A stretch of 62,314 nt of DNA, taken from assembly GCA_013697635.1 (NCBI GenBank), contig JACCWM010000206.1:1-62314 (forward strand). The letters run 5' to 3'. This stretch comes from Lujinxingiaceae bacterium. GTDB taxonomy: Bacteria > Myxococcota_A > Bradymonadia > Bradymonadales > Bradymonadaceae. The position numbers and the translations under genes were made by a program. A model generated the notes under the pieces. It did no database searches. It worked only from the letters and a program-made list of their open reading frames with translations, and was not told the origin of the DNA. Below are positions 22,944-33,808 of the stretch, in pieces; position 1 is the stretch's first letter; each line of letters begins with the position of its first letter.

Positions 22944-24623
22944 TCAGCCCTTGCTCTTCTTTTCAGCAAGCACGAGCAGGCGGCTGCTGGCCGGGCCGAG
23001 GAAATAGCCGCGGTGATGACGCTCGCCGCTGACTTCGAGCACGGCAAAGCCTGACAGGTTGAGCATCTGGCGCAGCTCATGGAGCGAGTAAAGGCGCACA
23101 TAGCTGTGTTGCTCGAGCGGCGGTGAGCCGTCCTCATAGATGAACGAGCGCTTGGCGTGCATGACGCTCAAGTTGTAGTCGAACTCGACCTCCTCGAGGA
23201 AGATGCAGTTGTTGCCCTCCCACCAGGTACGCGCGGGCATCTGACTGACGATGTAATCACGATTGACGACATCGATGAGAAAGCGTCCTCCAGGCTTCAA
23301 GGCGCGGTGAACGCCTTGTACGACCTTGAGGTTGGTGCGGTCGTCAAAGTAGCCAAGCGAGGTCTGCCAGATAAAGCAGCCATCGAAGATCTCCTGAAAG
23401 CCCAGCTCACGCATGTCGCCGTGAATGAACTTGATCGACTGAGATCGTTTTTTCGAGTCATTCAACGCTTTTTGCAACATCGGCATGGAGAGATCCAGGC
23501 CGACCATCTCGTAGCCACGCTGGCTCAACTCGATCGAATGGCGCCCGAAACCGCAGGCCAGATCGAGGATGCGCGACTCCTTCTTGAGGTTCAAGCTCTG
23601 GACGATGAACTCGACATCGCGATCGGTCTGATGGCTGAGGTCATTGGGCAGTGTGCGAAGAAACTCCTCGCTAAACGCTTCCTGAAACCAGATATCGCGC
23701 GGGCGCGACTTCTTGGGACGCTCGGTGACCTTTTGGGCGGCCTTTTGCTCTTCGAGCAGTTCTTGAACCAGGCCACGCATCTCCGGGTCTTCTTTGCCCG
23801 GGCTGCGAGCCGGAGCGCTGGCCGCTGCGGCCGGAGCTGCCGGAGCTGCTGCGGCGGCCGGAGCAGCTGCTGCAGCTGGCGGTGCGGCGCTAGGCGCAGC
23901 ACGTGGCTTGGGCGGGGGCTTGGTTAAGAACGCCTCGTCGATCTCGAGAGCGTCGCTGTCGAGCTCAATGGGCTCGGGTTGAATCTCGGGCAAGGCCGGG
24001 GCCTGGCTGCGCGCGGGAGCAGGCGCCTGCTCGACAGGTGCTGCCAACTCGGCGCTGGCCCGAGCGCGCTGGCGTGCGATATCGCGCGCTGCTTTGGGAG
24101 GGCCTTCCTGCCAACGCTTGATGAGCACGCGCGGCGGCAAGATGATAATCTCCGGCGCCAGGCGCTGGTCGAGCAGCAGCGTGGAAACACTGACTTCCGC
24201 GGATCGGCGGCTCAGGTATTGGTCGAGTTGGTGTCGATCGACGGCCTGCATCTGAATGGTCTTGACCATCGATTGCCGGTCGTATTCGACCGCTTCGGGC
24301 GCACCCACATGGGTGGCTTCGTCGAACTCGCTGTCGCCGTCAACCTTTCGAGTGGCTCCCGTACGTCGTCGAGCAATGATCGCTGCGGCGGGCACTTCGG
24401 TGCTTCCCACACCAGCCTCGTCAGGAACACGAAAGGTCGGCATCTCAAAGCCCAACGTGTCGATGTCGTCGACCATTTCCCTGGGTGGTTGCGTGGTTGA
24501 CCCCACCTCTTCGGTCAATTCGATGACATCGCTATCTTCATCCATCGCACGATCCAAGCCTGCGGTTTTGTCAGCAGAATTTGGCACTGATTCGAACTCC
24601 TCAGTCCTGACTGGAATAGCCAA
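22944..24623 (-). CDS. class I methyltransferase with long disordered N-terminal half
   Basis: A 559-residue protein. The C-terminal part (about 320-559) is a Rossmann-type methyltransferase: motif I ILDLACGFGRHS near 355, MVGLDLS after it, and ALKPGGRFLIDVVN near 470. The first half is acidic and then Pro/Ala-rich, with an Ala/Pro run near 245-275, and contains no recognisable domain. The target is unknown. The start is uncertain: the longest frame begins with TTG at 24623, and an ATG at 24545 would remove 26 residues; neither has a clear ribosome site. Convergent with the lipoprotein gene through the shared terminator. Confidence 0.8.
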   Translation of the reverse strand: MAIPVRTEEFESVPNSADKTAGLDRAMDEDSDVIELTEEVGSTTQPPREMVDDIDTLGFEMPTFRVPDEAGVGSTEVPAAAIIARRRTGATRKVDGDSEFDEATHVGAPEAVEYDRQSMVKTIQMQAVDRHQLDQYLSRRSAEVSVSTLLLDQRLAPEIIILPPRVLIKRWQEGPPKAARDIARQRARASAELAAPVEQAPAPARSQAPALPEIQPEPIELDSDALEIDEAFLTKPPPKPRAAPSAAPPAAAAAPAAAAAPAAPAAAASAPARSPGKEDPEMRGLVQELLEEQKAAQKVTERPKKSRPRDIWFQEAFSEEFLRTLPNDLSHQTDRDVEFIVQSLNLKKESRILDLACGFGRHSIELSQRGYEMVGLDLSMPMLQKALNDSKKRSQSIKFIHGDMRELGFQEIFDGCFIWQTSLGYFDDRTNLKVVQGVHRALKPGGRFLIDVVNRDYIVSQMPARTWWEGNNCIFLEEVEFDYNLSVMHAKRSFIYEDGSPPLEQHSYVRLYSLHELRQMLNLSGFAVLEVSGERHHRGYFLGPASSRLLVLAEKKSKG

Positions 24624-24827: not shown

Positions 24828-25784
24828 CTACTTGCGATTGAGTGGATTATTGGCCAGTCGAGTGTTCAGACCGTCGAGTGCGTCGGCCAATTCCCGATCA
24901 GTAGACGGCCGCGCGTCGGCTATCAGCAAGGCTGTGCTGGGGTGATCGACGAGCAAGAGGGCCCGCGTGGCCTCGGCGCGCAGCCTGGCGTCACCGCTGA
25001 CAAAAATCGCAAAGAGGGCTTCGGCGGCAATCTGGCGCGTGCGATCGCCTTGTTGGCTGTTGGCAAGGCGTGTGGTCTGCCAGGCCCAGCTGTTGGCCAC
25101 ACTGCTCAGCGCGCCCATGGCCACGATCTTGCTGTCGGGGTTGGTCGTCTGCAACAGGTGTTGGGCCAAGAAGGTTGCCACGTCGGGCCGTCGTGCCGAG
25201 GCCAGGCCGGCGATGATCGCGTCTTGTTTCGACCCCGCTCTGGTGGCGATCTCGAGCAGCGCCGCAATCGATGCGTCGTCGTCGAGCTTGCCGAGCGCTT
25301 CGCTGGCCGCGCTCAGCACGACCACATTGTGCTCGTTGCCTTTGAGCACGGCCTGGAGCACCCCGAAGGCGCGTGGATCGCGCAGATCGCCGACGGCCTC
25401 GATCATCGCGGCGCGGTAAACCGTCCATGCGCTCAGGCGCATGCCACTGGCGATCGGGCTTTCGGTGGCGATGGCGCTCAACATCGGCAAGAGCGCCTCG
25501 GGCCCCAGAGCCTTGAACAGCCCACTGACCGGCGCCAGGCGCCCTCGCTTGTTGCGATCGGCGCGGATCACGCTGGCCTTGAGCTCATCGAGACGCACGA
25601 AGATCATCGGATTTTCGACGCGCAAGCGCTCAATCTGCGCCTTCAGTGGCACAAGCTCGGGTCTGTCGATTTCAGCCAAGTCTGCGCTCGGGCCGGACTG
25701 GGCCATCGATGGCTTGATGCCGGTCAACAAAGACGTTCCTGCGAAGATGCTGATGAGTGACACGATGATAAGTTTGCGTTTCAT
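24828..25784 (-). CDS. exported HEAT-repeat protein coupled to the PAD-like gene
   Basis: A 318-residue protein with a signal peptide (hydrophobic 6-25, likely cleavage after PSMA) and about six helical repeats of HEAT/PBS type from residue 90 onward (for example LRDPRAFGVLQAVLKG and SIAALLEIATRAG). Such solenoids usually bind proteins. The ATG at 25784 overlaps the TGA of the upstream gene as ATGA, so translation is probably coupled and the two products made together. GGGAG lies about 9 bases before the ATG. No catalytic motif is seen; a binding or scaffold role for the deiminase partner is an inference from coupling only. Confidence 0.8.
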   Translation of the reverse strand: MKRKLIIVSLISIFAGTSLLTGIKPSMAQSGPSADLAEIDRPELVPLKAQIERLRVENPMIFVRLDELKASVIRADRNKRGRLAPVSGLFKALGPEALLPMLSAIATESPIASGMRLSAWTVYRAAMIEAVGDLRDPRAFGVLQAVLKGNEHNVVVLSAASEALGKLDDDASIAALLEIATRAGSKQDAIIAGLASARRPDVATFLAQHLLQTTNPDSKIVAMGALSSVANSWAWQTTRLANSQQGDRTRQIAAEALFAIFVSGDARLRAEATRALLLVDHPSTALLIADARPSTDRELADALDGLNTRLANNPLNRK

Positions 25785-27835
25785 TGTGCGTGCTCCCACC
25801 AACGGTAATCTTTGGGAATCCGACGTTCGACATTGCTTCCACAGTGCACCTCGCCGATGTTGAGATGGTAAAGATCCCAGTTTTCGATCCAGTGGACGGT
25901 GATGTCGAGCTCAGCGAGCGCCTCTTCCATCTGGGCCTCAAATATGTCGACGCCGCCGATGACTGGTCCGTGCGGCTTGGGCGATCCGAAGTGCTTATCG
26001 TTGAAGGAAATCCCATTGACCGTTCCCGGCTGATAGGCCATCGAGGCGCCATAGGTCTTCTCGTGCAAAAACGGGATGCGCACGATCTCGGCCTCGACAA
26101 TGCCAGTGGCCTGCTTGAAGACCAGGAATTGCTCGTCAATCTTGATGGCGGCCTCGGCGCTCGCGGCCATGATCGCGGCGTCGTCGAGCACCTCGGCGAT
26201 GGTTACGGTTGCGGATTCACCCGGCGGGCAACCGGCTCGCGTGCAAAGATCGTAGTCGATCGCCTGATGCTTGCCGACGAACATGGGTACTTCGCCGTGG
26301 CCGGCGTCGCGCTGATTGATCAGCATCTGGCGAGCCATGACCGGATCGTTGAGCAGCAGACTCCAGCCGCGCGCATTGTCGGCTTTAACGTAGCTGAAGA
26401 TCTCATCGACGTGGGCCACGAGCAACCAGAGGGTGTCGATGTAGATGGGATCCTGCACGTTCTGGCCTACGAGCATGCGGTCAAAGGCGGCGTCGGGCAT
26501 GTTGCTGGCACTCTTGCCCCGAATCACCCGCCCGGCTGGATAGGCCACGCCGTTGTGCTCGTAGGGCGGGATCGTCTCGGTATTTCCAAAGGAATCGAGA
26601 GTATCGGAGGAATCGTGCACATCAAGGTAGCGTCCGATCTCCGGGTAGGAGCCTCGGGCGCGCTCACCGTACAACCAGAGGATCACGTCATTGAGATCGT
26701 AGCCGGCCAAATCGAAGGGATCTTGATTCTTGTCCGGGCTAAAGACCGTCACACCGGCGACGTCGGGGCCGCGAAGCTCGGTGTAGACGACCCGGCCGGC
26801 CTCGCGAAGCGGCTCCGGTAGCGGTTCACGGTAGTACTGATAGAGCAACGTGTAGAGATCTCTCATCGACTCGGGATATTCCAGATTCGCTGAACGAAAG
26901 TAGACTTGAATGGCCTGCATGCCTTCTTTGCTCGGCATCGCCATGTAGCCGTTTTCAAAGAAGTCCTGGGTCCACTGATCGTCGACAAACAGCGCCCGTA
27001 GTGGTTGGGCTACATCGGCAAGATCCATGGCGCGCTTCAAATCACGGATGAACGCCTGGCTCTCCGGATCCCTGGGAAAGCTCGAAGCGAAGACCGCGTC
27101 CGCCGGATCGAGGTGGTGTCGAAGGAGCACCGGTGCCTGGCGCAGTCGCACCGTATCGGACGATTCCTCCAAAATGCCGGGCGCGCGCACGCTGAGGGTG
27201 ATGTCGACCATGCCATCCCAAACCTCACGATCGCGAATGATGTCCTTGCCTTCTATGGCGAACTCAACGCCTGCACGCAGCGCGTCGGCGTCGAGCACGT
27301 CGTTCTCTGGATCGAAGACGACAAAGCTCGTGGCCTTCTCCTGACCATTGGTGTTTCGAAACAAGCGCACATGAGCGCGAGCGGCTTCATCGATCGACAC
27401 GCGTCCCTCGGCGCCAGCGAGCGCCCCCGGCCAGGGGCGCGTTTTGATTCGCGCCAGATCGCGCAAATCGTCGTCGCCATTGACGATCTCGTCGGTCGCG
27501 TCGTTGCAGGCAGCGAGCTCGGCGTCGCTGCCGTGGCTTGGACAGCGCAGCATATCGTCGTCGATGTTAGCCAGAAAAATCGCACCATGGGCCGCGGTCC
27601 AAACCGTCTTGGAGCCCGTCTCACCTGGATCGTCAAAATCGATGACGCCGTTGCGGTTTGAGTCGGCTACGATCTCGATCGTCGGCAGCGGGATGGGATT
27701 TCCCTGTTCATCGACGACGACTGCGCTCAGATTAGGTTCGACATCGGTGCCGCCGCACGCCGCGATCAGGACTGCGGCGAAGAGAACGACAAGGCGAGGT
27801 CCGAGGGCCGACCAGGGCATCCATTTGTTCGTCAT
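25781..27835 (-). CDS. protein-arginine deiminase family lipoprotein (PAD-like)
   Basis: A 684-residue protein with a lipobox at Cys27 (LIAAC), so it is predicted to be anchored outside the inner membrane. The C-terminal 400 residues match the animal-type protein-arginine deiminase catalytic domain. The four catalytic positions known from PAD4 are present: Asp291 (TQDFFENGY), His475 and Asp477 (AHVDEIFSYV), and Cys665 (GEVHCGSN). The HFGSPKPHGPVI segment is also characteristic. Residues about 35-245 resemble the PAD middle domain, with a calcium-loop-like DSNRNGVIDFDD at 58-69; the PAD N-terminal domain is missing. Members convert protein arginine to citrulline in a calcium-dependent way. The ATG at 27835 lacks a clear Shine-Dalgarno sequence. 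Confidence 0.88.
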   Translation of the reverse strand: MTNKWMPWSALGPRLVVLFAAVLIAACGGTDVEPNLSAVVVDEQGNPIPLPTIEIVADSNRNGVIDFDDPGETGSKTVWTAAHGAIFLANIDDDMLRCPSHGSDAELAACNDATDEIVNGDDDLRDLARIKTRPWPGALAGAEGRVSIDEAARAHVRLFRNTNGQEKATSFVVFDPENDVLDADALRAGVEFAIEGKDIIRDREVWDGMVDITLSVRAPGILEESSDTVRLRQAPVLLRHHLDPADAVFASSFPRDPESQAFIRDLKRAMDLADVAQPLRALFVDDQWTQDFFENGYMAMPSKEGMQAIQVYFRSANLEYPESMRDLYTLLYQYYREPLPEPLREAGRVVYTELRGPDVAGVTVFSPDKNQDPFDLAGYDLNDVILWLYGERARGSYPEIGRYLDVHDSSDTLDSFGNTETIPPYEHNGVAYPAGRVIRGKSASNMPDAAFDRMLVGQNVQDPIYIDTLWLLVAHVDEIFSYVKADNARGWSLLLNDPVMARQMLINQRDAGHGEVPMFVGKHQAIDYDLCTRAGCPPGESATVTIAEVLDDAAIMAASAEAAIKIDEQFLVFKQATGIVEAEIVRIPFLHEKTYGASMAYQPGTVNGISFNDKHFGSPKPHGPVIGGVDIFEAQMEEALAELDITVHWIENWDLYHLNIGEVHCGSNVERRIPKDYRWWEHAQ

Positions 27836-28010: not shown

Positions 28011-28874
28011 TCAGGAACCCACGTCGACGTTGCCTATGATCTCACCCAAACGCAGCACCTGACCGGCCTCGAGCTCGTCTTTGAAGCGAAAGGCGGGGTT
28101 GGAAATCAGGACGATGACCGTCGAGCCCAAATTGAACACACCGAGCTCGTCGCCGTGGTCGACAGCGACCGCCTCGACCGGCTCGAACTCACGACGGCGG
28201 CGAAACTTGGTGTTGGTGACGAACTTGTCAAAGCTCAGCCCGATTCGCCCAACACAAGTCGCGCCGACCTTGATCACGGCGACCCGGCCGGCAGCCGGCG
28301 TCTCCAGGTAGCTTATCAGGCGCTCGTTGACGGCGAAGAGCTCGTCGATGTTGTCCACGGCGAACGGATTGACCGGAAAAAGATAGCCCGGGATATAGCT
28401 TATCTTGTCGATTCGCCCGCTGCTTGGGCTGTGAATCCGATGGTAATCGCGTGGCGAGAGGTAAATCGTCGCATAATGGCCATTGAGAAAGCGCTTGGCC
28501 TCCTCGCCGCTGTCGACCAGATCGATGAGACGGTACTCGCGGCCTTTGGCCTGCAAGAGCACCTCGCCGGTGATCGCGCCAAAGGCGCCAAGGCAGCCGT
28601 CAACCGGGCTAACGAGCACGTGGTCGTCTTGCGACGCGATCGTGCGCGCACCTTCGCACAAATTGCGCGTAAAGAACGCGTTGAGGCTGCAATACTCGCC
28701 GGGAGGACGCTCGCCTTCGCTGATGTCGATGCCGGCATAGCTTGCAAACGCCGAGTTGACGACGCGCTGCATCGGTGCGGGAAACTCCACGTCACAAATC
28801 GAGCCGAAAACACGACTGACGAAATTCTTGGGCAGACGTCGTAGCGCCTGCAACTTCACTTGATCCATTACCAT
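28011..28874 (-). CDS. psd: phosphatidylserine decarboxylase
   Basis: A 287-residue pyruvoyl enzyme that makes phosphatidylethanolamine at the inner membrane. Self-cleavage at the LGST motif (Gly250-Ser251) should yield alpha and beta chains with Ser251 becoming the pyruvoyl group. Asp92 (SPVDG) and His148 (YHRIHSP) fit the other residues of the processing triad. The length matches the bacterial type I enzyme. The ATG at 28874 has AAGGG 7 bases upstream. A hairpin at 28908-28932 lies in the leader region. Confidence 0.94.
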   Translation of the reverse strand: MVMDQVKLQALRRLPKNFVSRVFGSICDVEFPAPMQRVVNSAFASYAGIDISEGERPPGEYCSLNAFFTRNLCEGARTIASQDDHVLVSPVDGCLGAFGAITGEVLLQAKGREYRLIDLVDSGEEAKRFLNGHYATIYLSPRDYHRIHSPSSGRIDKISYIPGYLFPVNPFAVDNIDELFAVNERLISYLETPAAGRVAVIKVGATCVGRIGLSFDKFVTNTKFRRRREFEPVEAVAVDHGDELGVFNLGSTVIVLISNPAFRFKDELEAGQVLRLGEIIGNVDVGS

Positions 28875-29627: not shown

Positions 29628-31160
29628 ATGAATCGATATTTTGGTCTGCACACCCTCGAGGGCGAGTGGCACAGCCTGCTTCCTCGCTATTTGCTGCTGG
29701 CCGACCGGGTGGCAGGACGCCGCGTCTTGGACATCGGTTGCGGCACCGGCATTGGCTCATCGCTGCTCTTGGAGATGGGCGCCGAGCGCGTCGACGCGAT
29801 CGATCATCGCCCCGCCGTGCTCGAGATCGCGCGGATGAAGCACGCCAAACAGGGCCTGGATTTTCACGTGATGTTTTGGGAGGAGCTCGATTTTCCCGAG
29901 GATACCTTCGACATCGTGCTCTGCCTCGACCCAAGCTCTCCGGTGACCGATCCGAACCTGCTGTTGGAGATGCGCCGCGTGCTCAAGGCCGGCGGCGAGT
30001 ATGTCTGCGCCATCGAGCGCAAGAATATCAAAGGCATTGAGACGGTCTTGCCGCGCTATGGCTACGCCGACGCCGCGCAGAGCATCGACGTGCACGACCG
30101 CGGCGAGCGCGTGCCCCAGATCGGTGAGTTGACCAAACTCTTCGAAACGGTGGTCTCGGTCGTCCAACAGCCTCACCTGAGCTATGTCTTCGATCTCAAC
30201 CCGGAGCGAAAGGGCCATCTGGATCCCGAGGGCGAACATGTCGACGAGATGCGCAAAGTCTCGGCCAGCGGCGAGAGTGGGCTGTGGGGCGGCAACGAGG
30301 CTGGCGCCGAGGGAGCCGAGGCCGACCATGGGCCCGTGGATCGATGGATTTCGATGGACAACCAGTTCTGCTCGCACCGCGACGAGGCCAGCGTTGAGCT
30401 GTTGTTTTGCGGTGACAGTCACTTGCCACCGGCGCCAGTGCGCGAGATACGCATGCCCTACTATGCGCTCGTGGAGCGTCTGAATTTGATGACCAGCGAA
30501 TTGCAAAGCCGCGCGCGACAAGGCGAGGAAGAGGGTTTTGGCGAGCTTGTCGACAACGCGAGCACCGCGGACTTTAACGAGCGCGAGTTGACCGGAGAGT
30601 ATCGAGCGCTCACCCACTGGGAGGACGTTCGCGAGACGACGAACGCGCCGCTGCGCCGTGAGTATGCGCCGGCGCAGCAATCGGTCAACTACGAGCTCGA
30701 CGCCGACCAGCTTCTTTATATGCAACGCCAACTCGATCAGGTCGGTGTGCTCTACCATCAAGTGCGCACGGACATGGAAGATTTGGCCTACGATACGCGC
30801 CGTGAGCTGGCCGAGCGTGACCGCTATATCGAGCAACTCGTTGGCACGATCCATCGCTGGGAGCACCACTTCTACGGCGATCAAAGCGGCGCGACGACGC
30901 TCGACGGCGAAAAAACCGGGGTCTTTGACAAGCTCGAGCGCCCAGAACTCGAGTTCGCTGGCGATCTGCAGGCAGACGAGCAGCGCGCGCCGATCACCGA
31001 TGAAGCGACCCCCGATCAACCCGAAGCCAGCCTGGTGCGAGACGAAGAAGCTCCGATCGACGAGAGCAGCCCGGCTAGCGGCGCGAGCGGCGAAGACGGC
31101 AGCGTCGAAGAGCAAATCGCGCCTGCCGAGAAAAAAGAGGAAGAGGATCAGCCGGTCTGA
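29628..31160 (+). CDS. methyltransferase fused to a coiled-coil, acidic C-terminal half
   Basis: A 510-residue protein. Residues 20-200 are a class I methyltransferase: motif I VLDIGCGTGIGSS at 33-45, an acidic residue after VDAID, and VLKAGGEYVCAIER near 120-133. Residues about 200-300 form an additional domain, 350-430 is helical and probably coiled, and the last 80 residues are acidic and Ser/Pro/Glu-rich. The general layout, methyltransferase plus disordered part, mirrors the gene at 22.9 kb with the order reversed. The substrate is unknown. The start is the ATG at 29628. The FadL-type porin gene follows after about 60 bases. Confidence 0.8.
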   Translation: MNRYFGLHTLEGEWHSLLPRYLLLADRVAGRRVLDIGCGTGIGSSLLLEMGAERVDAIDHRPAVLEIARMKHAKQGLDFHVMFWEELDFPEDTFDIVLCLDPSSPVTDPNLLLEMRRVLKAGGEYVCAIERKNIKGIETVLPRYGYADAAQSIDVHDRGERVPQIGELTKLFETVVSVVQQPHLSYVFDLNPERKGHLDPEGEHVDEMRKVSASGESGLWGGNEAGAEGAEADHGPVDRWISMDNQFCSHRDEASVELLFCGDSHLPPAPVREIRMPYYALVERLNLMTSELQSRARQGEEEGFGELVDNASTADFNERELTGEYRALTHWEDVRETTNAPLRREYAPAQQSVNYELDADQLLYMQRQLDQVGVLYHQVRTDMEDLAYDTRRELAERDRYIEQLVGTIHRWEHHFYGDQSGATTLDGEKTGVFDKLERPELEFAGDLQADEQRAPITDEATPDQPEASLVRDEEAPIDESSPASGASGEDGSVEEQIAPAEKKEEEDQPV

Positions 31161-31221
31161 GTCCTGGCTGAGCTAACAGGGAGCTATGCCGTTTGACGGC
31201 GGCATTGGTGAGCGAGTCGTT

Positions 31222-32742
31222 ATGCACAAAACTCTGAGATCCCCACGGCTGGCAGCCGGCGTGTTCAGCCTGGCCGTTGGCCTCGGTGCCCTGGTTAGCA
31301 GCCCAGGCGAAGCTCACGCAGGCGGCTTCGAAGTGGGCGAGAATACGACCCAGGCCGTCGCCCGGGGCGGAACCGGGGTGGTCATGAAGCGCGATCCGAG
31401 CGCGATGTACTTCAACCCCGCCTTGTTGCCACGCGCGCGCGGCTATCAGTTGCTCGTCAACGCAAACCTGGTCAACCTCGACCTCGATTTTCAGCGTGAT
31501 CCTCTGATCTATAATCGGGGCAATCGCACCGTCCAAACCGACTTTGAGGCCGTGGCCAACCAAGGCGGCTTTTTCCCGGCGCCCTTTCTTACGACGAGCT
31601 GGGACGCGGGAATCGAGAACTTCGCGCTGGCGGCCGGCGTCTTTGGACCGAGCGCCTATGGCTCACCGTGCTTTGGTGAGCTGACTGCAGACGGATGTCA
31701 GCCCAACGGCGGCGCTGCGCGCAATATGATCGTCGACTCGAACATGATCGTCGTCTACTTCAGCCTGGGCGCGGGCTACCAATTCAACAATGTATGGGGC
31801 GGCGAGCTCAGCGTGGGCCTGACGTTGATGGCCGCCCACCTGCGCTCGAGCTTTATCAGCACCTTTGAGGCCGACCCCAACGCCGTCCCGCCCTGGGAGG
31901 AAGATCCTCAGATGGACGCGGTCTTTCGCGCCGAGGGCCTGACCGGCTGGGCGCCGACCGGCATCCTGGGCCTTGCCTACGCCCGCGACGGTTTTCGTCT
32001 CGGCGCAAGCTACCGTCCGCCCTATCACTGGGAGGCCAAGGGCAAGGCGAACATCGAGTTGCCCGTCTCCTTTCAGGATCTGGGGGCGGCACTGAGCGAC
32101 GACACGCTCACTTTCAGCACCTGGCATGCCGGCTCGCTTCGTCTGGGCTGGGGCTACGAGGGCGGCGTGCACCCGGGCAAGCCCGAGCGCGCGCGCCTGG
32201 AACTCGAGGCCAACCTGGTCTGGGAGAACTGGTCGCTCGTCGAAAACTTTCACGTCGCGATCGCCGGCCACCTCGAACTCCATGAGTTTGTCGACGAGGA
32301 GGGAAATCCCGCCATCGTCGGCGTGGCCGACATCTACCAGGCCAAGAATTTTCAGGACACCTACAGCCTTCGCCTGGGCGGCGGTTATGCCTTTTTGCCG
32401 TGGCTGAGCGGCCATGCCGGCGGCTTTCTCGAGACGGGCGCGCAGCCGGTGGCCTTCACCAATGTCGATTTCGTCAGCTGGGAGCGCTACGGCGCTGGCC
32501 TGGGCGCGACACTGCACCTGGGCAGCATCGACCTCGATCTGGCCTACATGCACATCTATTCGCCATCGCGCCGTGTCAGCGCCGGCGGCGTCTACAACCA
32601 GATCCCCTTGAGCGAGTGCACCGGTCCCAACTACGATCACGCGGCCTGCAATGGTGGTACGCCACCGGGCAACCCGCAGAACAACGGTAGCTGGTCATCG
32701 AGCGCGCAGATTGCGAGCATCGGCATGACGTGGCAATACTGA
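31222..32742 (+). CDS. FadL/OmpP1-type outer-membrane transport protein
   Basis: A 506-residue outer-membrane protein. The signal peptide ends at about AHA-GG (residue 33-34), and the mature chain begins GGFEVGENTTQAVARGGTG, typical for the FadL hatch region that includes an NPA-like motif (MYFNPALLP). The rest alternates short strands of a beta-barrel and ends in an aromatic residue (TWQY), as expected for BAM recognition. Members carry fatty acids or aromatic compounds across the outer membrane. The ATG at 31222 is chosen over 31186 because it gives a clean signal peptide. Confidence 0.88.
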   Translation: MHKTLRSPRLAAGVFSLAVGLGALVSSPGEAHAGGFEVGENTTQAVARGGTGVVMKRDPSAMYFNPALLPRARGYQLLVNANLVNLDLDFQRDPLIYNRGNRTVQTDFEAVANQGGFFPAPFLTTSWDAGIENFALAAGVFGPSAYGSPCFGELTADGCQPNGGAARNMIVDSNMIVVYFSLGAGYQFNNVWGGELSVGLTLMAAHLRSSFISTFEADPNAVPPWEEDPQMDAVFRAEGLTGWAPTGILGLAYARDGFRLGASYRPPYHWEAKGKANIELPVSFQDLGAALSDDTLTFSTWHAGSLRLGWGYEGGVHPGKPERARLELEANLVWENWSLVENFHVAIAGHLELHEFVDEEGNPAIVGVADIYQAKNFQDTYSLRLGGGYAFLPWLSGHAGGFLETGAQPVAFTNVDFVSWERYGAGLGATLHLGSIDLDLAYMHIYSPSRRVSAGGVYNQIPLSECTGPNYDHAACNGGTPPGNPQNNGSWSSSAQIASIGMTWQY

Positions 32743-32782
32743 TGGAACCCGATTCGGCTCTCACCCGCACCCCAGGCCCGCG

Positions 32783-33808
32783 TTGAAGGCGAACCTCTCA
32801 AACGACCGTCCCGGCGGCCTGCTTCGCCTCCAGGCCAACGGAGCGATCCTCGAGGCGCCGATTTTTTTCCAAGAGGCGCTCAATTTGCACCTGCGCGAGG
32901 TGGCCTCGATCTACCATCTCTTCGATGCGAGCGAGGCGCCCTATCTGTGCCTGTCGCGCATCTATTGTCATCCGCAAGGGGCGATGGAGTTTCACCTCAC
33001 CGTGCGCGGCGCCTTTGGCATCCAGCGCGGCTTTCGCTATTGGCATCTGGCCCAGGAGCACGCCGACCCGGCCGTGAGCACTTTTTTCATCGTCGACGAG
33101 AGCTCGAGCTTGCAGCACCAGGAGTGGTCGAATCGGCGCCAGCGCCGCGATATCCTCAACGACATCCAGACCTCGCTCTCGATGCACCTCAAGAACCGGC
33201 TTGCCGCCGTCCAGGTGCTCACCGAGATGGTGCGCGATTCGCCCCAGATGGCCAACGAGATCTCGCCGCGTCTGTTGGCGGCAGTCAGCGATCTCAACTA
33301 CGCACTGGGACGGGTTACCTCGACCTCGGATGCCTGGAATCCGCCGCGCGACTACCAAGATCTGCCGATCAGGCTCACCGATCTGGCCTCGATCATGGCC
33401 AGCTGGAGCATGGAGCGCACGGCCGTGGTCTGTCGCACCCACAGCGTCGATCGGGGAACGTTGATCGCTGCTTCCAGCGTCGAGCGCGTGATCTTGCCGG
33501 TAGCCCAAAACGCGCTCGAGTCGTCGCCGCGCGACTCCACGATCGCCGTGGATATCACTGAGGTGCGCGAGGGCTTTGCCCACATTGTGATCGAAGATTT
33601 TGGCGAGGGTATGAGCGATCGGGTGCGAAGCCGCGCCGAAGATCCGTTCTTCACCACGCGCCTGGGCCACCTGGGTCTGGGCCTGTCGCAGGCGCGCGAG
33701 GCCCTGCGCGTGGCCGGCGGCCAGTGGAAGATTGAATCGACTCCGAACGTCGGCACGCGCTTTACGATCTTGTTGCCGGTGACCACCGCCGCCCATCTTT
33801 TTCGCTGA
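32783..33808 (+). CDS. soluble sensor histidine kinase
   Basis: A 341-residue protein without membrane segments. Residues 10-110 are an uncharacterised input domain. A helical part contains a phosphoacceptor-like His135 in SMHLKNRLA. The HATPase part has the N box (AQNALESS, Asn243), G1 (EDFGEGM), an F box (FFTTR) and G2 (HLGLGLS). It should autophosphorylate on His and pass phosphate to a response regulator, perhaps the convergently encoded one at 34-36 kb. The start is a TTG at 32783, chosen because no in-frame ATG exists before the fold; a 14-codon frame (32742-32786) links the porin stop to this TTG. Confidence 0.82.
   Translation: MKANLSNDRPGGLLRLQANGAILEAPIFFQEALNLHLREVASIYHLFDASEAPYLCLSRIYCHPQGAMEFHLTVRGAFGIQRGFRYWHLAQEHADPAVSTFFIVDESSSLQHQEWSNRRQRRDILNDIQTSLSMHLKNRLAAVQVLTEMVRDSPQMANEISPRLLAAVSDLNYALGRVTSTSDAWNPPRDYQDLPIRLTDLASIMASWSMERTAVVCRTHSVDRGTLIAASSVERVILPVAQNALESSPRDSTIAVDITEVREGFAHIVIEDFGEGMSDRVRSRAEDPFFTTRLGHLGLGLSQAREALRVAGGQWKIESTPNVGTRFTILLPVTTAAHLFR

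Follow-up and report, generated by a model that had tools for sequence, protein, structure and literature searches.

What would an enzyme of the protein-arginine deiminase (PAD) family do in a bacterium, in which compartment, and with which partner? The question is raised by a 62,314-nt stretch of DNA (the window) from contig JACCWM010000206.1 of a Lujinxingiaceae bacterium (GTDB Bradymonadaceae, Myxococcota_A; assembly GCA_013697635.1), in which a first-pass annotation had placed a lipoprotein of the animal-type PAD family. That annotation described PADs as long considered animal-specific, a view that is out of date, since a survey of PADs in bacteria appeared in 2021 (PMC8826395) and a PAD from Streptomyces is known to citrullinate citrulassin (PMC9266682, PMC12971885). 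The reading that we favour, with a probability of roughly 0.7, is that the gene encodes a calcium-dependent protein citrullinase of the cell envelope, which would act with a dedicated HEAT-repeat partner. Its basis lies in the sequence, namely the family, the catalytic residues and most of the calcium ligands, the export and lipobox signals, and a conserved gene pair (Table 1).

Table 1. Features of the PAD locus (positions in the window)
Feature	Position	Strand	Basis
PAD lipoprotein, 684 aa, P0001	25781..27835	-	ORF, PF03068 and PAD4 match
Signal peptide and predicted lipobox, residues 1-27 (LIAA-C27; +2 is Gly)	27755..27835	-	Cys aligned in 88/88 complete relatives
Divergent PAD middle domain, residues 55-215	27191..27673	-	Sub-threshold PF08527, phmmer, profile alignment
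Calcium loop D58-N60-N62-G63-D66 ('DSNRNGVID'), PADI2 site 6	27638..27664	-	Alignment
Catalytic PAD_C domain (PF03068), two matched stretches flanking a family-specific insertion	25793..27163	-	Pfam
Insertion, about residues 364-411	26603..26746	-	Alignment; split PF03068 match
Catalytic Asp291 (PAD4 Asp350)	26963..26965	-	phmmer and profile alignment
Catalytic His475 and Asp477 (PAD4 His471 and Asp473)	26405..26413	-	phmmer and profile alignment
Catalytic Cys665 (PAD4 Cys645)	25841..25843	-	phmmer and profile alignment
Exported HEAT-repeat partner, 318 aa	24828..25784	-	4-nt overlap of its ATG with the PAD stop (ATGA)
Phosphatidylserine decarboxylase gene, just upstream of PAD	28011..28874	-	Same order in two family relatives (L055, L056)

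Domain organization and active site of the PAD protein

The Pfam search that had been proposed as a check gave a highly significant match of the minus-strand ORF to PF03068 (E 1.5e-86; 291.3 bits against a curated cut-off of 25), and the plus-strand reading of the same interval is interrupted by internal stops. The PAD_M family PF08527 was matched below threshold (17.7 bits), no other Pfam family appeared at E up to 1, and NCBIfam had no model for the protein. Among PDB sequences searched with phmmer, human PAD4 was the top match (E 6.6e-42), followed by PAD1-3 and PAD6. A profile built from 28 bacterial PADs (25 from Myxococcota and three from Streptomycetaceae) aligned with human PAD4 in a single stretch covering chain positions 116-663 (E 3.4e-114), and this alignment runs unbroken across the middle domain, though PF08527 alone is sub-threshold. 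The match therefore comprises the middle and catalytic domains without PAD_N. Likewise, PAD_N was not found in the window PAD, in which residue 55 is preceded only by the signal peptide and a linker. On these alignments, the window PAD is of the two-domain type (divergent PAD_M and PAD_C) and not of the three-domain animal type. The insertion at about residues 364-411 is missing from the seven aligned relatives outside the window's family. The genome has one copy of the gene. An AlphaFold2 model of the protein, made with 8 aligned rows, was weak (mean pLDDT 60), and the Foldseek matches shown for it, which were all PADs or PAD-containing complexes, serve as a sanity check only.

The four residues named as catalytic in the annotation align with those of PAD4, and the tetrad is invariant in every covering member among 99 distinct relatives, two of which are cut by contig ends and miss some of these positions. 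Neither of the two outcomes that the annotation had named as refuting it, a missing PF03068 match or the loss of a catalytic residue, was thus seen. The two motifs singled out, VDEIFSYV and GEVHCGSN, are those expected at a PAD active site, and PAD4 W347 is kept as Trp288.

The assignment of residues to calcium sites follows in part the PAD4 and PAD2 structures; PDB titles include PAD2 mutants at D123, D169, D177, Q350 and E354, each determined at a defined calcium concentration. Site 1 is kept (PAD4 Q349, E353 and E411 correspond to Q290, E294 and E420), as are the ligand residues of the middle domain (N90, D92, D94, D112, D115, D123, D126 and E195). The sequence noted as calcium-loop-like indeed aligns with PADI2 site 6 (D123/D125/D127/E131), with D125-to-N and E131-to-D changes, and both changes have been reported in non-animal PADs (PMC8826395). 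The calcium-switch Asp (PADI2 D389) is kept as D358, with Asp at this position in 53/67 and 19/32 relatives, whereas actinobacteria and fungi are reported to have Gly (PMC8826395). Site 2 was not found: PAD4 E351 is replaced by F292, and D369 and S370 are not kept. The animal-type designation thus stands for the family and fails for the architecture, given the missing PAD_N and the lost site 2.

These features resemble those of the two-domain bacterial and fungal PADs of Cummings et al. (2021; PMC8826395), which also have a divergent PAD_M and a PAD_C without PAD_N, the catalytic residues, calcium sites 1, 3, 5 and 6 with the same site-6 changes, and no site 2. The lipoprotein signal and the HEAT operon partner of the window PAD, in contrast, are unmentioned there. 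With the three-domain PADs of Clade Ai, namely animal PAD1-4 and the cyanobacterial enzyme, the window PAD shares the catalytic tetrad, calcium site 1, the middle-domain calcium cluster and the C-terminal GEVHC motif; a cyanobacterial PAD is reported to be active and calcium-dependent (PMC8826395). The window PAD differs from the Clade Ai enzymes in lacking PAD_N and site 2, in its predicted export as a lipoprotein, in its substrate-contact residues, and in having insertions at about 327-341 and 364-411. Porphyromonas PPAD is similar in its nominal reaction and its envelope or extracellular location. However, it belongs to a different family, which was not among the Pfam matches at E up to 1, in agreement with the annotation's remark that the two are unrelated.

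In the profile alignment, the positions of PAD4 R374 and R639, which we take to be the substrate-contact arginines, are not conserved in the window PAD. The substrate preference of PAD4 is therefore not transferable, and because site 2 is changed as well, regulation and substrate choice must differ from PAD4. Free-arginine deiminases also belong to the wider amidinotransferase superfamily. Together with the altered contact residues, this membership would be compatible with a protein of the PAD fold whose substrate, used as a nutrient, is free arginine or some other guanidine compound, rather than proteins. We regard this as very improbable: both domains find their best matches in peptidyl-arginine deiminases, and one of the two is the calcium-binding middle domain, which is absent from free-arginine deiminases; moreover, no arginine-catabolism genes were recognised beside the PAD gene.

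The window PAD probably catalyzes protein citrullination in a calcium-dependent manner. By the PAD mechanism, the Cys665 thiolate would attack the guanidinium group while Asp291 and Asp477 hold it and His475 acts as the acid/base, and bound calcium would shape the cleft, so that arginines of proteins or peptides would be converted to citrulline.

Lipoprotein signal and predicted location

The predicted lipobox was correctly recognised in the annotation. A Cys in the lipobox register occurs in 88/88 complete relatives, a count that could be slightly high because start codons and signal peptides were chosen with a home-made heuristic favouring hydrophobic, lipobox-bearing starts, and the residue at -1 is Gly, Ala or Ser in 86/88. 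The conserved Cys is plainly visible in the alignment, whatever the start-choice score. As Asp occurs at +2 in just 3/88 complete relatives, most of these proteins would, by the E. coli rule, be placed in the outer membrane. The PADs of Myxococcota are thus predicted to be exported lipoproteins, and lipidation of the window PAD at Cys27 and its location in the outer membrane are probable. The two-domain enzyme would be exported and kept in the cell envelope, and export would bring an enzyme with a millimolar calcium requirement to a compartment where calcium is available.

The PADs of Streptomyces are members of the same family, being about 33% identical to the window PAD across 94% of its length. 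A signal peptide opens two of the three PADs from Streptomycetaceae plasmids, as it does the lipoprotein PADs. Unlike the window PAD, however, all three are without the lipobox Cys, and no HEAT-repeat neighbour was found at their three loci. According to PMC9266682 and PMC12971885, a Streptomyces PAD citrullinates citrulassin (Harris 2020), and such peptide-tailoring PADs are encoded apart from the peptide cluster. By analogy, the window PAD might be an exported tailoring enzyme acting on a lasso or other secreted ribosomal peptide encoded elsewhere, which the HEAT protein would present. Lasso clusters have been reported in Bradymonadales (PMC10368454), and lasso-type peptidase homologues are present in the window's genome and family. 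Nevertheless, PF13471 matches occur in 12/12 high-quality genomes of the family and a PAD in only five, so that PAD presence does not appear to track the lasso-type genes in the family; no ribosomal-peptide gene was recognised near PAD, and cytoplasmic precursor processing fits a lipoprotein poorly. We consider peptide tailoring a doubtful explanation.

The HEAT-repeat partner gene

The translationally coupled HEAT-repeat gene, which the first-pass annotation missed, is the most informative new feature of the locus. Its product begins with a signal-peptide-like segment and contains HEAT repeats (PF13646, E 6.2e-9). AlphaFold models it with confidence (pLDDT 86 overall) as an alpha-solenoid that extends from residue 42 onwards, and the structural neighbours of the model are of the generic HEAT type. 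It is thus an alpha-solenoid of the general kind found in PF13646 HEAT proteins (phycobilin lyase, NblB and alphaRep-like solenoids). No match to a named HEAT family was found, the scores being far under every specific NCBIfam cut-off, and, unlike those families, strong matches of the window type are confined to PAD-bearing genomes.

The neighbourhoods of 99 distinct PAD genes were searched with iterated HMMs; the 2,986 ORF segments taken from the flanks had been cut back so as to exclude the PAD coding sequence. A HEAT-repeat gene adjoins 94/94 PADs with readable flanks, always on the PAD strand (92 downstream and two upstream), and the five PADs without such a neighbour are all cut by contig ends. 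The HEAT partners were the sole matches of the partner HMMs among the flanking segments. Partners of the window type stand beside 62 PADs (60 downstream, two upstream), and a second HEAT type lies downstream of 32, two tandem PADs sharing one gene. Compared as profiles, the two types are related (hhalign probability 95%), a relationship that may be one of HEAT repeats at large. The ATGA overlap with the PAD stop recurs in 41/62 window-type and 12/31 second-type pairs, and a signal-like start was found in 60/62 and 29/31 partners, respectively. Individual arrangements vary: at one locus (L130:5303-8666), a tandem pair of PAD lipoprotein genes is followed by one HEAT-repeat gene, and at two others (L074:2893-5864 and L075:6888-9937) the order is reversed, with the HEAT-repeat gene immediately upstream of PAD.

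Within the window's family, the partner occurs in 9/9 PAD-positive and 0/12 PAD-negative genomes (Fisher p 3e-6), and the identities of PAD and partner correlate (r 0.78), although shared ancestry inflates both the Fisher p-values and the correlation. Among 379 Myxococcota genomes, window-type matches at E<1e-15 were found in 56, all PAD-bearing, so that no orphan partner was seen at this level; the weaker matches, with E values from about 1e-10 upwards, are to HEAT proteins of the generic kind. Because of the strict pairing, the translational coupling and the lack of orphans, we favour a direct physical role of the partner. Although a conserved gene arrangement does not by itself establish a complex, the two proteins probably form one, in which the partner most likely binds PAD and serves as its chaperone, regulator or inhibitor, or else brings substrates to it.

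A strict pairing of this kind also resembles effector-immunity pairs, and the partner diverges faster than PAD (median identity 29% vs 37%). Given the many predators in the phylum (PMC11509652, PMC7460792) and a plausible delivery as a surface lipoprotein or via outer-membrane vesicles, the PAD might be an offensive citrullinase directed against prey or competitors, with the HEAT protein as an immunity protein or inhibitor that shields the producer's envelope. However, the partner has no known immunity domain and no orphans, whereas immunity genes often stand alone. The pair is present in only a quarter of the phylum genomes and absent from most genomes of the window's family, and the lipid anchor suggests retention. 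The available part of a polymorphic-toxin survey does not mention deiminases. An offensive role is unlikely, though less so than peptide tailoring. For the envelope citrullinase that we prefer, working with a dedicated, co-translated and exported HEAT-repeat protein, the candidate targets would be the cell's own envelope, prey or a secreted peptide.

Distribution and significance

PF03068 was found in 94/379 genomes sampled evenly across Myxococcota, with up to four copies in some. In the tree, the window PAD groups with the PADs of its own family (96) within a 37-row clade (98), and the PADs with the second HEAT type form one clade (100). No relative was found in phage records, and only four plasmid relatives were seen, all in Streptomycetaceae. 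The 2021 survey of Cummings et al., which used 2019 data, lists PADs in 295 bacterial species, including 69 Proteobacteria (PMC8826395); we infer that many of the latter are myxobacteria, which were then placed in that phylum.

Other genes beside PAD are conserved only inside single families. The phosphatidylserine decarboxylase gene is likely a neighbour and not part of the PAD system. Further upstream, a divergent block (29628-33808) encodes a SAM methyltransferase, a FadL/TodX-type outer-membrane protein and a further gene, and is syntenic in L055, L056 and L060. The HEAT gene is followed on its strand by a methyltransferase gene (22944-24623), the product of which has a long N-terminal region of low complexity, rich in Ala and Pro. 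At eight loci of one family (f12), PAD is preceded on the same strand by a gene whose product, about 1,100 residues long, matches Glucodextran_B and, weakly, LBP/BPI/CETP-like domains (for example, L098:88-3327, L104:8445-11552 and L138:2717-6031), which is a candidate PAD substrate or co-factor there.

While the PAD family is already known in bacteria, neither its phylum-wide lipoprotein form nor its pairing with a HEAT gene turned up in the literature searched. A search of the open-licence literature for a link of a bacterial PAD to a HEAT-repeat partner or to lipoproteins returned none, and the HEAT protein seems not to have been described before as a PAD partner. Beyond the first-pass annotation, the analysis adds the PADs of 94/379 phylum genomes, the lipobox Cys in 88/88 relatives and the HEAT gene at 94/94 loci. 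With somewhat better than even odds, these may represent a previously undescribed two-component system for extracytoplasmic citrullination in Myxococcota, in which a lipid-anchored calcium-dependent PAD is always paired with an exported HEAT partner for control or substrate presentation, and citrullination would be a common envelope or extracellular modification in this predator-rich phylum.

To our knowledge, protein citrullination has been studied almost only in animals, whose PADs reside in the cytosol or the nucleus and require calcium levels above those of a resting cell. About a quarter of the sampled Myxococcota species genomes carry a PAD, compared with less than 1% of the bacteria covered in 2021 by Cummings et al., and the proposal is therefore testable in cultured strains. 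If it is true, the export of a PAD lineage to a calcium-replete compartment would provide a natural setting for the calcium requirement, and the fixed partner would be a candidate natural PAD regulator, giving citrulline in proteins a bacterial biology.
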